From NCBI RefSeq assembly GCF_000148645.1, contig NC_014541.1:496001-560000 (forward strand): a stretch of DNA of 64,000 nt, in the 5' to 3' direction. Position numbers and translations under genes: made by a program. The notes beneath the pieces were generated by a model. The model did no database searches. It worked only from the letters and a program-made list of their open reading frames with translations, and had not been told where the DNA came from. Shown piece after piece: positions 1,475 to 60,934 of the stretch (position 1 is the stretch's first letter; each line of letters starts with the position of its first letter). The stretch comes from Ferrimonas balearica DSM 9799 (GTDB taxonomy: Bacteria > Pseudomonadota > Gammaproteobacteria > Enterobacterales > Shewanellaceae).

Positions 1475-2338
1475 TCTCAAAGATAAAGCGAGCAGAGAGG
1501 ATGCCTGCTGCGAAGTTGAGTGATTGTCTAGCGTGGGTGAGTGAACGCTATCTCCGCATGGCGCGGTTTTGATGGGGATTGCGCTTTTTGCAATCCTGCG
1601 TCTGGGCACGCTCCCGCCCTTAGGTGTCGCTCCCAAAGTGCGGAAAGGTCAGATTTTGTCTTAGCTGTCAGAAGATTGGCGCGCAATCTAGCATCTCTGT
1701 GCTAGCCTCACAATCGCGGGTGATTTTATTTTGTGATAAGGTTCCGCGTCAGCATCATTTTCTTGATTTGCCATACAAATATTGTTTTTCCACTGGCCAG
1801 ATGTACAAATTTGGCTTTTTGCCATCACTTCTGTAGGAAATCGCCCATAAATGCCCATATCCAATGGCTTACGTCATCGCTGCAGATATGGACGCTGCGC
1901 GGCATGCTGCTAAATCACAGAAAAACAGTCATTTCTCTTGAGTGAGCGGGGAAGCCTGCGCATGAAAGTGGGAGAAAGGGAAGGTGAGTTTGGTAGTGCG
2001 ACGAAATGCGTGGCATCTCGTGGCGAATCCTTGAAAAGGCTACGAACGTCAATCCTTTGACTCTTTCTTTCGGTAGGCGACATTAACAATCCCCCGTTCA
2101 CACTGTCAAAAGGCAATCTGGTTACAGTTTGTGCGCTTTGATGTGAAGGTGGGATTGCCAACGGTCTGATTCGCTGAAATTTTGTCTGGAAATGTAGCTC
2201 TTAAACTTGAGAGGGGGCGGATGGGCAGAGCAACTGACTATTTAGTCGGGAGTGGATGTGGCTCGTTTTTCCTCGCATTTTTTGAATAATGATGTCATTT
2301 CCGCTCAATATGTATCCACTGGCTCAATCGTCAGGCAC
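1475..2338. other. Intergenic region between kpsM and the fis terminator
   Basis: About 860 bases of comparatively AT-rich sequence with no reading frame that has both a credible ribosome site and family character. It should contain the kpsM promoter (minus strand). The only motif I can point to is an 11-base match (9 of 11) to the ops/RfaH element on the minus strand at 1545-1555. Nothing else recognised. Confidence 0.4.
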
Positions 2339-28271: not shown

Positions 28272-28309
28272 TCGATAAGGGTAAGCGGCGCATGGAGCCT
28301 TGCGATGCA

Positions 28310-28328
28310 AATGATAACTGTTATCATT
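28310..28328. promoter_or_regulatory. Fur box upstream of the DUF2061 gene
   Basis: A perfect 9-1-9 palindrome AATGATAACTGTTATCATT fits the 7-1-7 Fur consensus (TGATAAT-N-ATTATCA) with one change per half. It lies 25 bases before ATG 28354, so iron repression is likely. Confidence 0.75.
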
Positions 28329-28353
28329 GAGTCATCACTTAGGAGGACACCAT

Positions 28354-28570
28354 CATGCTCAAGACTTTCACTTTCGCCGTAATGCACTTTTCCATCGCTT
28401 TTGCCCTGGCCTACCTGATTACCGGCAGCATCGTGATTGGTGGCCTGCTGGCGGTACTTGAACCGATGGTGAACACCGTGGGGTACGCGATTCATGAGCG
28501 GGTCTGGAAACGCATTGAAGCGCGCCGTGAGGCTGAGGCCCCCTCTGCGGACGTGGCTTTGCCAGCCTGA
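28354..28570 (+). CDS. DUF2061 family small membrane protein
   Basis: About 71 residues with two closely spaced hydrophobic segments (FAVMHFSIAFALAYLITG, IVIGGLLAVLEPMVNTVGY) and the family motif HERVWKRI. The predicted inner-membrane protein has no known function. Strong ribosome site AGGAGGAC. The Fur box overlapping its promoter suggests it is induced by iron limitation. Confidence 0.75.
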
Positions 28571-28673: not shown

Positions 28674-28822
28674 TAAAAAAACGCCAGCCGGGCTGACGTT
28701 TTTGCGGAGGAGGATGATGAAAGACCAACCGACGTGCAGGCGGGCTAACCGACCTTTGAGGCCGAGCCTTCTGTCTGGGTCTGGCTTTACCCTCTCATAC
28801 CTTTGAGGCTCGGGGCCAATGC
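28674..28822 (-). ncRNA. Candidate structured small RNA, array unit 1
   Basis: Read on the minus strand: TTGGC (28815-28819), 13 bases, then GGTATGAGAG; long-range helix CCGAGCCT/AGGCTCGG (arms at 28762-28769 and 28806-28813). Linker TTTCATCATCCTCCT follows, then terminator hairpin AACGTCAG/CTGGCGTT with a run of seven T. The single imperfect pair of the terminator is G-U on the minus strand but C-A on the plus strand. Between the helices AGACC may pair with GGTCT next to the linker (pseudoknot). No open reading frame. Diverged relative of the four units that follow. Confidence 0.55.
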
Positions 28823-29072
28823 CTTATCCCTATTGCTGCCATCGTTTTTTATCGCGAACTTTTCGGCAGTTATGGGGCCTGTAAGTCGGTTCATGCGATC
28901 CCTCTCCCCGGCTCCTCTCCCCGCCGCTTTCTCCGCAGTGTGCTGCCGCACAACTCGAATCTTATCTGGCGCGTTTGCCTGGCGCCTATCGCCATCCAGC
29001 TGGCCCTGATGTCGCCGTTACCGCGGGCGCTAAGCCCATGCGAAAGCAGGATAAGTGGTGGTGAAGTGCAAA

Positions 29073-29237
29073 CAAAAACGCCAGCGTGGGAAACGCCGGC
29101 GTTTTGCTTCAGGAGGATGATGAAAGACCAGAAACCACATTTGCAGGGAGGTAAAGGATGGGTCGGAGGGAAGCCGTTGGCCCATCGCCTTGGTCTGGTT
29201 ATTACCTTCTCACAGTGGTTTGGTCGGGGGCCAACGG
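29073..29237 (-). ncRNA. Candidate structured small RNA, array unit 2
   Basis: Minus strand: TTGGC (29230-29234), 13 bases, ACTGTGAGAA. Ten-base-pair helix CCGTTGGCCC/GGGCCAACGG (arms at 29174-29183 and 29228-29237). ACCAGA within that loop can pair with TCTGGT just before the linker CTTTCATCATCCTCCT. Terminator arms are 29077-29086 and 29094-29103, tail TTTTTGTTTG. Its one non-Watson-Crick pair is G-U on this strand, A-C on the other. Confidence 0.55.
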
Positions 29238-29318
29238 GTCTGGCCTATGGGGGTTATCGGGTTTTTCGGGGAACGTTTAGTGTGGGCGGCTGCCCCGTCT
29301 GTCGACCGGCAATCCAAA

Positions 29319-29483
29319 CAAAAACGCCAGCGTGGGAAACGCCGGCGTTTTGCTTTAGGAGGATGATGAAAGACCAGAAACCACATTTGCAGGGAGGTAA
29401 AGGATGGGTCGGAGGGAAGCCGTTGGCCCATCGCCTTGGTCTGGTTACTACCTTCTCACAGTGGTTTGGTCGGGGGCCAACGG
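29319..29483 (-). ncRNA. Candidate structured small RNA, array unit 3
   Basis: Second 246-base copy with the same elements as unit 2: helix arms 29420-29429 and 29474-29483, terminator arms 29323-29332 and 29340-29349. The linker before the terminator reads CATCATCCTCCTAAAG. Confidence 0.55.
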
Positions 29484-29564
29484 GTCTGGCCTATGGGGGT
29501 CATCGGGTTTTTCGGGGAACGTTTAGTGTGGGCGATTGCCGCCGCAGTCGACCGGCAACCCAAA

Positions 29565-29729
29565 CAAAAACGCCAGCGTGGGAAACGCCGGCGTTTTGCT
29601 TCAGGAGGATGATGAAAGACCAGAAACCACATTTGCAGGGAGGTAAAGGATGGGTCGGAGGGAAGCCATTGGCCCATCGCCTTGGTCTGGTTACTACCTT
29701 CTCACAGTGGTTTGGTCGGGGGCCAACGG
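29565..29729 (-). ncRNA. Candidate structured small RNA, array unit 4
   Basis: Third copy. One helix arm has changed (29666-29675 reads CCATTGGCCC on the plus strand), turning a G-C pair into G-U if the minus strand is the RNA, but a mismatch if the plus strand is. Terminator arms 29569-29578 and 29586-29595. Linker as in units 2 and 3. Confidence 0.55.
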
Positions 29730-29845
29730 GTCTGGCCTATGGGGGTCATCGGGTTTTTCGGAGAACGTTTGGTGCGGGCAGTTGCCCTGGGGTCTTAATC
29801 GTAGCGTGAACATTCAGCCCACGGTCCGGCAGGTCAAACAAGCAA

Positions 29846-30003
29846 TAAAAAACGCCAGCGGCGAGCTGGCGTTTTTCAAGGATGATGATGAAGGTCAGAC
29901 AGGCAATCGAGGGCGAGTTCGAAGGGATGGACCGTGTTGGGAAAGACACGGACTGCCTGTCTGACTGGGTTCAGACTCTCATACCGTCGCATCGTGTTGC
30001 CAA
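29846..30003 (-). ncRNA. Candidate structured small RNA, array unit 5
   Basis: Diverged unit. Minus strand: TTGGC (29999-30003), 13 bases, GGTATGAGAG. A first helix (plus 29946-29953 with 29986-29988 and 29993-29997) encloses one arm of a perfect 12-base-pair helix GTCAGACAGGCA/TGCCTGTCTGAC (29954-29965 with 29894-29905), giving a pseudoknot-like layout. The linker CTTCATCATCATCCTTG and terminator AACGCCAGC/GCTGGCGTT with six T follow. Confidence 0.55.
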
Positions 30004-30117
30004 TGCAAAAGACACATCACTTCAATCGCTTTTTTGCCAATGAAAGGGGGGAACTTCCCCCCCGGTCTTGTTCTTCAGGGCTACACTTTTGGAGACACCG
30101 TCAGCGAGGAGCCCGCT

Positions 30118-30690
30118 ATGAAGCGCATCGAAGCGGCGCTGCTCCCGATCGACGATCCGGTACTGCCGGAGGGTCGCAAAGAGCTGCGCATCGTGACTCC
30201 CGGGCAACTAAGGATGGTGGCCGCCTCTCTCAAGGATGGATCGAGCCTTGCGGTTTGCATGAGCCGTGAGGAGGGCGACATGCCCTGTTATCCCATCGCG
30301 ACCCTGGTGGACGTGGTGGATTTTTTCCAACTGGATGATGACACCCTGTCGGTGGTGGTTGAAGGGCGTCAGCGGGTTCGGGTGCTTAACACCTGGGCCG
30401 CCCCCGATGGTGTATGGATGGGGGAAACGTTGACCATGACCAACTGGCCATCGTTTCCGTTGGATAACAACTTTTCGGTATTGGGCGAGGCGTTGCGACG
30501 GCTTTATGAAGCCCAGCCTGAGCTGGGGCATCTGTACCATGACCCCCACCTGGAGGACGCCAGTTGGGTCAGTCAGCGTTGGTTAGAGGTGTTGCCCCTG
30601 GTTGAGCAGGAGAAGCAGCGATTGATGGGACAGCCGGACTGCGGCAAGACCATGCAATACGTGCTGTCGCTTATCCTGTCCCATCAATAA
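30118..30690 (+). CDS. LON substrate-binding domain protein
   Basis: 190 residues consisting of the Lon N-terminal (PUA-like) domain only, with no AAA or protease domain: VLPEGRKELRIVTPGQ, GTLVDV-like ATLVDVVDFFQLDDDTLSVVVEGRQRVRV. Such stand-alone proteins are of uncertain function, possibly adaptors or regulators of proteolysis. Start ATG 30118 is set by GCGAGGAG seven bases upstream; the frame is open further left but without a ribosome site. Confidence 0.8.
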   Translation: MKRIEAALLPIDDPVLPEGRKELRIVTPGQLRMVAASLKDGSSLAVCMSREEGDMPCYPIATLVDVVDFFQLDDDTLSVVVEGRQRVRVLNTWAAPDGVWMGETLTMTNWPSFPLDNNFSVLGEALRRLYEAQPELGHLYHDPHLEDASWVSQRWLEVLPLVEQEKQRLMGQPDCGKTMQYVLSLILSHQ

Positions 30691-60311: not shown

Positions 60312-60387
60312 GCGGCACTAGCTCAGCTGGTAGAGCGCAACCTTGCCAAGGTTGAGGTCACGAGTTCGAACCTCGTGTGCCGCTCCA
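60312..60387 (+). tRNA. glyV: tRNA-Gly(GCC), copy 1
   Basis: 76 bases, cloverleaf with acceptor GCGGCAC/GTGCCGC, T-loop TTCGAAC, encoded CCA. Anticodon GCC at 34-36 (loop TTGCCAA). Confidence 0.97.
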
Positions 60388-60418
60388 AATTCTCACCTCA
60401 GGGTGAACAAAAATCGAA

Positions 60419-60494
60419 GCGGCACTAGCTCAGCTGGTAGAGCGCAACCTTGCCAAGGTTGAGGTCACGAGTTCGAACCTCGTGTGCCGCTCCA
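60419..60494 (+). tRNA. tRNA-Gly(GCC), copy 2
   Basis: Identical to copy 1. Spacer of 31 bases containing CTCACCTCAGGGTGA. Confidence 0.97.
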
Positions 60495-60525
60495 AATTCT
60501 CACCTCAGGGTGAACAAAAATCGAA

Positions 60526-60601
60526 GCGGCACTAGCTCAGCTGGTAGAGCGCAACCTTGCCAAGGTTGAGGTCACGAGTTCGAACCTCGTGTGCCGCTCC
60601 A
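60526..60601 (+). tRNA. tRNA-Gly(GCC), copy 3
   Basis: Identical to copy 1. Same upstream spacer as copy 2 (107-base period). Confidence 0.97.
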
Positions 60602-60636
60602 ATTTCAAAAGTCTTCCTTCGGGGAGCAACTGTGAA

Positions 60637-60712
60637 GCGGCACTAGCTCAGCTGGTAGAGCGCAACCTTGCCAAGGTTGAGGTCACGAGTTCGAACCTCG
60701 TGTGCCGCTCCA
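60637..60712 (+). tRNA. tRNA-Gly(GCC), copy 4
   Basis: Identical sequence; the upstream spacer switches to a second type (CTTCCTTCGGGGAGC), period 111 bases from here. Confidence 0.97.
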
Positions 60713-60747
60713 ATTTCAAAAGTCTTCCTTCGGGGAGCAACTGTGAA

Positions 60748-60823
60748 GCGGCACTAGCTCAGCTGGTAGAGCGCAACCTTGCCAAGGTTGAGGTCACGAG
60801 TTCGAACCTCGTGTGCCGCTCCA
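60748..60823 (+). tRNA. tRNA-Gly(GCC), copy 5
   Basis: Identical sequence; second spacer type upstream. Confidence 0.97.
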
Positions 60824-60858
60824 ATTTCAAAAGTCTTCCTTCGGGAAGCAACTGTGAA

Positions 60859-60934
60859 GCGGCACTAGCTCAGCTGGTAGAGCGCAACCTTGCCAAGGTT
60901 GAGGTCACGAGTTCGAACCTCGTGTGCCGCTCCA
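60859..60934 (+). tRNA. tRNA-Gly(GCC), copy 6
   Basis: Identical sequence; second spacer type with one base change upstream. Followed by two terminators. Confidence 0.97.

Follow-up and report, generated by a model that had tools for sequence, protein, structure and literature searches.

Five minus-strand units that lie between a DUF2061 gene and a LON-domain gene of Ferrimonas balearica are, in our reading, five tandem genes for trans-acting small RNAs (sRNAs), each with its own promoter, probably controlled by OxyR and with nrfA as the best target candidate. Based on sequence comparison, we give this reading a probability of about 0.55. The window, as used here, is the whole 64,000-nucleotide stretch of DNA that was analyzed.

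Array organization

An earlier sequence-only reading of this DNA described five minus-strand units between these two genes, of which units 2-4 are near-identical over 246 bases. Both descriptions are borne out: the array is composed of three 246-nt repeats (29069-29806; copies with 96% and 91% identity to the reference copy) and two diverged outer units, and the block CATCATCC has five copies in it. In its own genome the array lies at G000:C1:524675-526039; the genome of the type strain (PAT-T), a single contig here, is given as 4,279,159 bases in an excerpt of PMC3035368. The features are as follows.

28355..28570, plus strand: DUF2061 gene, flanking, convergent with the array
28675..28782, minus strand: predicted RNA of unit 1 (DUF2061-proximal), 108 nt; linker 28708-28721; terminator from folding, absent from the simple scan
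28789..28819, minus strand: core promoter of unit 1, predicted by comparison of units
28819..28855, minus strand: OxyR-like upstream element of unit 1, 11/20 consensus matches
29074..29197, minus strand: predicted RNA of unit 2; linker 29111-29124; terminator from folding, absent from the simple scan
29204..29234, minus strand: core promoter of unit 2, predicted by comparison of units
29234..29270, minus strand: OxyR-like upstream element of unit 2, 11/20 consensus matches
29320..29443, minus strand: predicted RNA of unit 3; linker 29357-29370; terminator 29321-29351
29450..29480, minus strand: core promoter of unit 3, predicted by comparison of units
29480..29516, minus strand: OxyR-like upstream element of unit 3, so nearly a duplicate of unit 4 that logo and matrix were made without it
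29566..29689, minus strand: predicted RNA of unit 4; linker 29603-29616; terminator 29567-29597
29696..29726, minus strand: core promoter of unit 4, predicted by comparison of units
29726..29762, minus strand: OxyR-like upstream element of unit 4, 11/20 consensus matches
29847..29966, minus strand: predicted RNA of unit 5 (LON-proximal), 120 nt; linker 29879-29892; terminator 29846-29878; shuffle z -6.1 without the terminator
29973..30003, minus strand: core promoter of unit 5, from the -35 TTGG to the -7 T, predicted by comparison
30003..30039, minus strand: OxyR-like upstream element of unit 5, -73 to -37; 9/20 consensus matches in this register, among the weakest
30118..30690, plus strand: LON substrate-binding-domain gene, flanking, divergent from unit 5

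Around the array, a Fur-box-like palindrome (AATGATAAC.GTTATCATT) was seen upstream of the DUF2061 gene (28305-28330), kept in loci L034, L035 and L038, and the stretch from unit 5 to the LON gene contains a short inverted repeat (GGGGGGAACTTCCCCCC; 30046-30063) that is perfect here and imperfect in L034 and L035.

Predicted promoter architecture

Comparison of the units shows a promoter-like spacing. The elements CGAT, AT, TTGG, TG.GA and T stand at constant, gap-free distances in 15/15 non-duplicate units, in contrast to the distance from the predicted start to the linker, which varies from 44 to 76 nt. The layout is CGAT-N7-ATAG, a -35 TTGG and an extended -10 TGnGAnnnT; with +1 set seven bases past the invariant T, the A-tract falls at -68 to -64, CGAT at -62 to -59, ATAG at -51 to -48, TTGGC at -37 to -33, TG at -15/-14, GA at -12/-11 and the T at -7. 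As predicted from this comparison, the upstream layout is that of an activator site followed by a -35 and an extended -10. We infer that the units are transcribed from the start site so placed; the 5'/3' helix of the RNA (see below), which is independent of promoter spacing, begins at most three bases from it in 16/17 folds. A simple scan gave no sigma-70 site and the -10 is weak, which is compatible with transcription that depends on an activator. Reading the block as a sigma-54, sigma-28 or heat-shock promoter was considered and dropped because the spacings misfit. Qrr promoters, for example, are sigma-54 promoters of the form GG-N10-GC, and the promoter logo has GG at -35/-34 and no conserved GC ten bases on.

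The sequence-only reading had taken TTGGC and a TRTGAGA block, 13 bases apart, for part of the RNA, with a long-range helix around TRTGAGA. The block is present in the five units, the spacer is 15 bases, and TRTGAGA is much more likely a predicted -10 region than an RNA motif. The complementarities that had been quoted are present in the sequence, and the helix did not withstand a partner swap among 14 of the 18 units, from five genomes (window_1 and the near-duplicates window_2, L034_3 and L034_4 were dropped). In just 4/14 units did a unit's own partner beat all foreign ones, in 8/14 at least six of the 13 foreign partners were equal or better, and a label permutation reached the observed total in 35 of 5000 trials. 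Since foreign partners are as good in most units, this helix, which mostly spans the probable promoter, was rejected as a conserved family feature, and the compensatory changes claimed for it are unsupported. Two window types are among the 4/14 units whose promoter region finds its best partner in the RNA of the same unit (CCGTTGGCCC/GGGCCAACGG and CCGAGCCT/AGGCTCGG). The -35 region is complementary to an arm of the RNA's inner hairpin, over 8 to 10 bp; this applies to units 1 and 2-4 of the window and to 4/14 units overall.

The putative regulator

The upstream element reads C-K-A-T-N7-A-T-M-G and occupies -73 to -37, abutting the -35. The OxyR motif, as given in an excerpt of PMC8787470, has the repeat ATAG-N7-CTAT twice in tandem, 7 to 10 bp apart, and its inner halves give CTAT-N7-ATAG, which resembles the element of the units. 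With the 20-position OxyR consensus in the register -73 to -37, the units show 8 to 13 matches each, and this register is the best fit to the consensus in 9/15 units. Among 127,928 positions of the window, 13 or more matches occur six times and 11 or more occur 162 times. In E. coli, the best upstream stretches reach 16 (oxyR/oxyS), 14 (dps) and 14 (katG) of 20, and the LON-proximal units 8 or 9.

A matrix was made from the units alone (15 units, as for the logo; window_2, L034_3 and L034_4 were dropped as near-duplicates) and tested against 137 control upstream regions, one of which is an outlier at 34.9 and is very probably L038, the array locus of G004. The best matrix score was above the control 95th percentile for dps in 5/6, ahpC in 10/17, katG in 6/12 and oxyR in 7/14 regions, orthologues that are not independent of each other; the same holds for 4/14 gmk regions (gmk is head to head with dps in several genomes) and for 0/6 nrfA regions. 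The strongest ahpC/oxyR sites are intergenic ones in six genomes where no sRNA unit was found, with 16 to 20 bits against a top score of 17.6 in 308,838 background positions; these six ahpC regions are close orthologues whose site is common with oxyR, and do not count as independent. In the F. balearica genome itself, the regions of dps (p 0.02) and of one katG gene (p 0.009) pass, unlike those of ahpC (p 0.15) and of the second katG gene (p 0.11). In E. coli, the best matrix hit fell on a promoter in two of the four stretches scored, directly before dsbG, an OxyR target, and directly before katG; the dps and oxyS promoters were missed. Every one of the 14 Ferrimonas genomes encodes a single OxyR-like protein that stands out, with 34-36% identity to OxyR of E. 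coli, and in 14/14 this protein retains the two redox cysteines, spaced by eight residues. The oxyR gene is far from the array (G000:C1:777916).

One alternative is that the array is under another dyad-site regulator, LysR-type or a response regulator, in which case the likeness to dps and ahpC would reflect shared control by that factor. The moderate match to the OxyR consensus, lower still in the LON-proximal units, and the failure of ahpC in the own genome are in line with such a factor; yet three peroxide gene families all score above controls, and the OxyR register coincides with the conserved block in the 9/15 units, so that we consider another regulator rather unlikely. OxyR control of the units appears likely, given the consensus register and the matrix scores of the peroxide genes.

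Structure of the predicted RNAs

The predicted RNAs are 90-128 nt long and follow one plan, in which the 5' end pairs with the bases before an unpaired linker, TCATCRTCVTCC (UCAUCRUCVUCC), and an intrinsic terminator follows; by eye, most units also show a hairpin with a C-rich loop. On folding, every unit closes with a terminator hairpin and a T run, and the 3' ends proposed earlier (28674, 29073, 29319, 29565 and 29846) lie 1 nt from the ends of minus-strand terminator hairpins. A simple terminator scan of the window found 12 sites against 2.5 expected and named three of the five unit terminators, the other two coming from folding. The units thus have an intrinsic terminator with a U run after an unpaired stretch, as do trans-acting Hfq-type sRNAs.

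The segment that had been said to pair with the bases just before the linker does form such a helix, and this helix covaries. It is present in the minimum-energy fold of 16/17 units; it is missing from those of L034 unit 6 and the L050 unit, and the L050 row, with some extra bases, is poorly aligned here. Over the 5'/3' helix and the terminator together (17 pairs, 15 sequences), 95.5% of cells pair and double-sided changes occur at 6 pairs, compared with 2.5 +/- 1.0 in shuffles, of which 2/500 reach 6; the 5'/3' helix alone has double-sided changes at 3/6 pairs (AU to GC, CG to UA). When partners of this helix were permuted among 14 units, the observed energy was equalled in 0/5000 trials, a test dominated by the long LON-proximal helix. 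Without the terminator the shuffle z is low, with a mean of -1.7 over 18 units, and is strong in just three of the four LON-proximal units; in the window, the LON-proximal unit has -6.1 and the other four -0.1 to -0.7. With covariation on the one hand and this low mean z on the other, the RNA structure is supported by comparison rather than by stability.

Candidate target of the linker

The linker is complementary to Shine-Dalgarno and start-codon sequences of the type GGAUGAUGAUGA. The 12-mer GGAKGATGATGA occurs outside the arrays 6, 4, 4 and 6 times in G000 (the F. balearica genome), G007, G003 and G004, and one match is the start of the same gene in all four; four other matches lie in coding regions, for example in a thiI-like gene in G007 and G004. 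The gene that starts at GGAKGATGATGA matches models of the ammonia-forming cytochrome c nitrite reductase, at scores below the full-length cut-offs because just 288 residues were given. NrfA-like matches number 3 to 6 in each of the 14 Ferrimonas genomes (nrfA loci L228-L256).

The longest pairing between linker and nrfA is 16 bp (G007). For five of the 17 units tested (four from G007, one from G004) none of the 48 window gene starts pairs as well as nrfA; in the F. balearica genome 4 to 7 of the 48 do so, and nrfA is not outstanding. The 12-mer is found at the nrfA start in 6/8 genomes with a unit at either locus (the array locus or the gmk locus described below) and in 0/6 without, which is weak evidence since the genome groups follow clades. 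We infer the pairing from these matches, and the nrfA start region is the leading candidate for a target of the array RNAs. Small-RNA control of nrfA has a precedent, as an excerpt of PMC5826389 describes that RyhB, with Hfq, destabilises nrfA mRNA in S. oneidensis.

Another hypothesis is that the RNAs are sponges, whose C-rich loops and linker would sequester a protein or a further RNA instead of repressing mRNAs. Several short unpaired pyrimidine motifs in each RNA and the many copies would suit this role. However, the linker is much better conserved than the loops and fits a Shine-Dalgarno and start region, which makes sponges improbable in our view.

Relatives and evolution

A search of related genomes had been proposed, and it revealed orthologues of the units at this locus in four more Ferrimonas genomes. 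The array is thus present in 5/14 Ferrimonas genomes, with 5 units in G000, 6 in G007, 4 in G003, 2 in G004 and 1 in G006, a comparison that shows both conservation and change of copy number. The LON gene was found in 14/14; in the nine other genomes the gap between the DUF2061 and LON genes is about 105 to 350 bases and no unit was seen in it on reading. The contig that carries the G007 array (L044) is filed as Marinobacter nauticus DP3N21-5, and we assign it to the genus of the window. Of 60 relatives searched by BLAST, two further Ferrimonas genomes matched strongly and a third had weak matches at the locus.

A covariance model, R2, was built from 15 units (an earlier model, R1, from alignment A1, had the terminator as its only structure and was not used to search). 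R2 gives matches above 100 bits at the array locus in the 5/14 Ferrimonas genomes; these are the units used to build it or near-copies, and so indicate completeness and not independent confirmation. Since R2 matches a seed plus terminator widely, only full-length matches were counted, and a scan of 152 genomes of the family gave no credible full-length member outside Ferrimonas, under stricter filters that could miss diverged ones. Two full-length matches there were rejected: L264 (35.5 bits) lies largely inside a coding region, presumably rraA-like, and L270 (29.2 bits) is a terminator that follows a cytochrome-like gene. We also rejected a relative on a plasmid or phage, as blastn gave no match in either collection.

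In the tree, the LON-proximal units of four genomes join (100/99), as do the DUF2061-proximal units of three (89/80), and internal copies cluster by genome (97/98 both for w1-w3 and for a2-a4); the remaining forks have weak support. Judged from this tree, the outer units are old and the inner units were amplified anew in at least two species.

Related units were found beside gmk: one between gmk and dps in G010, two there in G011 and one between gmk and rmuC in G001. They have a CGATAAC-type upstream element, a folded 5' part and a terminator, and three of the four have an unpaired UCAUC-type linker, the first G011 unit having just CAUCCC. The matrix gives 16.3 on the G001 element, a score that no background position of 123,938 reaches, and 10.8 on the second G011 element; the G010 unit's own element is absent from the top hits. 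The G001 unit scores 36.4 bits, about the same as the false L264 hit, and is unreported in a stricter family scan; it was retained on account of synteny, promoter element and fold rather than score. An element of similar form is also present upstream of the dps genes. These data suggest that a gene beside dps may be ancestral to the array or parallel with it, and, with two tandem sRNA-like units beside dps in L104 (G011), a second, smaller array may exist there. In another genus of the family, locus L265 (G061; about 1500-1590, minus strand) has a Dps-like gene with UUCAUCAUCAUCCC and a terminator after it, the arrangement seen in the Ferrimonas RNAs; this may be a 3'-UTR relative or may be chance.

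Could the array be a duplicated terminator or repeat element without regulatory function? Seed-plus-terminator look-alikes do occur behind unrelated genes in other genomes and the internal copies are recent duplicates, but the strongly diverged outer units keep the promoter spacing and the linker, and a helix of the RNAs covaries; we hold such an element to be very improbable. Even less credit can be given to cis-acting leaders or attenuators of a riboswitch-like kind, which would also have a folded 5' part and then a terminator, because no minus-strand gene lies between any unit and the next promoter and unit 1 is followed by a plus-strand gene. Coding of small or repeat proteins on the plus strand, where most units have a Shine-Dalgarno-like AGGAGG and then ATGATGAAA with its ATG, and a 289-residue frame (28940-29809) is open across the three repeats, was rejected: the frame stays open mechanically as 246 is a multiple of 3, the repeat period in G007 is 221 nt, frames after the same ATG in 18 units have 10 to 66 mutually unlike residues, and the Pfam matches of the long frame (BCAS3, 24.5 bits; CENP-W, 21.8 bits) include no single stretch that passes.

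Proposed mechanism

If the array is a set of trans-acting sRNA genes, each unit would be transcribed from its own minus-strand promoter and ended by its terminator. Each promoter has an OxyR-like site abutting the -35 and a weak extended -10, so oxidised OxyR would bind at -73 to -37 and probably turn on all copies together under peroxide stress. The RNA would then fold its 5' end onto the bases before the linker and leave the linker unpaired. As the linker is complementary to Shine-Dalgarno and start sequences, it would cover these in chosen mRNAs and most likely block translation initiation, the best candidate being the mRNA of nrfA. The earlier claim of a multicopy minus-strand regulatory RNA family is retained on the grounds of orthologues in four other Ferrimonas genomes, constant promoter spacing and one covarying helix, and its argument from the TRTGAGA helix falls away.

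A more ambitious scenario, which we offer tentatively and with odds well below even, is that of a peroxide-triggered RNA switch scaled by copy number: OxyR would fire five or six tandem sRNA genes, the linker would cover the Shine-Dalgarno and start codons of nrfA, and perhaps of other respiratory genes, and ammonifying respiration would be shut down under oxidants, in a family that originated next to dps, relocated afterwards to a second locus and there expanded its inner copies separately in each species. The RNAs may in this way switch off nitrite breathing on oxidant exposure in a marine metal-breathing bacterium. The predictions are directly testable in the culturable type strain, and the copy numbers of 0, 1, 2, 4, 5 and 6 across species form a natural series on why sRNA genes multiply.

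Comparison with known sRNA systems

Rfam 15 includes OxyS, Qrr, RyhB and LhrC. In a scan of the whole window only six tRNAs passed the gathering cut-off (six tandem genes at 60312-60931, with identical scores); in the array stretch at a permissive threshold the best match was anti-hemB, with 20.3 bits against a cut-off of 49.5, and seven related loci gave no match. A known Rfam family was rejected as the identity of the units on these scores, and the earlier remark that no named family matches them agrees with this result. As judged from these searches, the array RNAs are a predicted small-RNA family absent from Rfam 15. In the open-licence literature we found no work on Ferrimonas sRNAs and no OxyR-linked multicopy or OxyS-like sRNA array.

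LhrC of Listeria is a multicopy family with unpaired C-rich motifs, as here, in another phylum and under another regulator, and the Ferrimonas units have no Rfam match. RyhB of Shewanella oneidensis is similar in acting on nrfA mRNA, the candidate here, and differs in being Fur-controlled and in that the Ferrimonas units lack an Rfam match. OmrA/OmrB, PrrF1/PrrF2 and AbcR1/AbcR2 have regulators other than an OxyR-like one. They are described in an excerpt of PMC4211561 as tandem siblings with conserved ends and divergent middles, as in Ferrimonas, with two copies each, and they differ from the Ferrimonas units in this number and in that the latter match no Rfam family. Sibling sRNAs, tandem ones included, were thus already known (excerpt of PMC4211561), and four Ferrimonas genomes, with 5, 6, 4 and 2 units that are predicted to be genes on sequence alone, likewise have at least two homologous sRNA genes each. 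The same excerpt gives four or five sibling Qrr sRNAs per Vibrio genome, dispersed over the genome and activated by LuxO (PMC4211561). The Ferrimonas array shares the several siblings per genome; it differs from Qrr in its tandem layout, in its OxyR-like element and in lacking the sigma-54 spacing of Qrr promoters. OxyS of E. coli is a small RNA activated by OxyR, which for the Ferrimonas array is proposed only; OxyS is annotated as a single gene beside oxyR, whereas Ferrimonas has five tandem genes far from oxyR. If OxyR drives all copies, metal reducers living at redox boundaries would have in this array a counterpart of OxyS that is multicopy and OxyR-wired.
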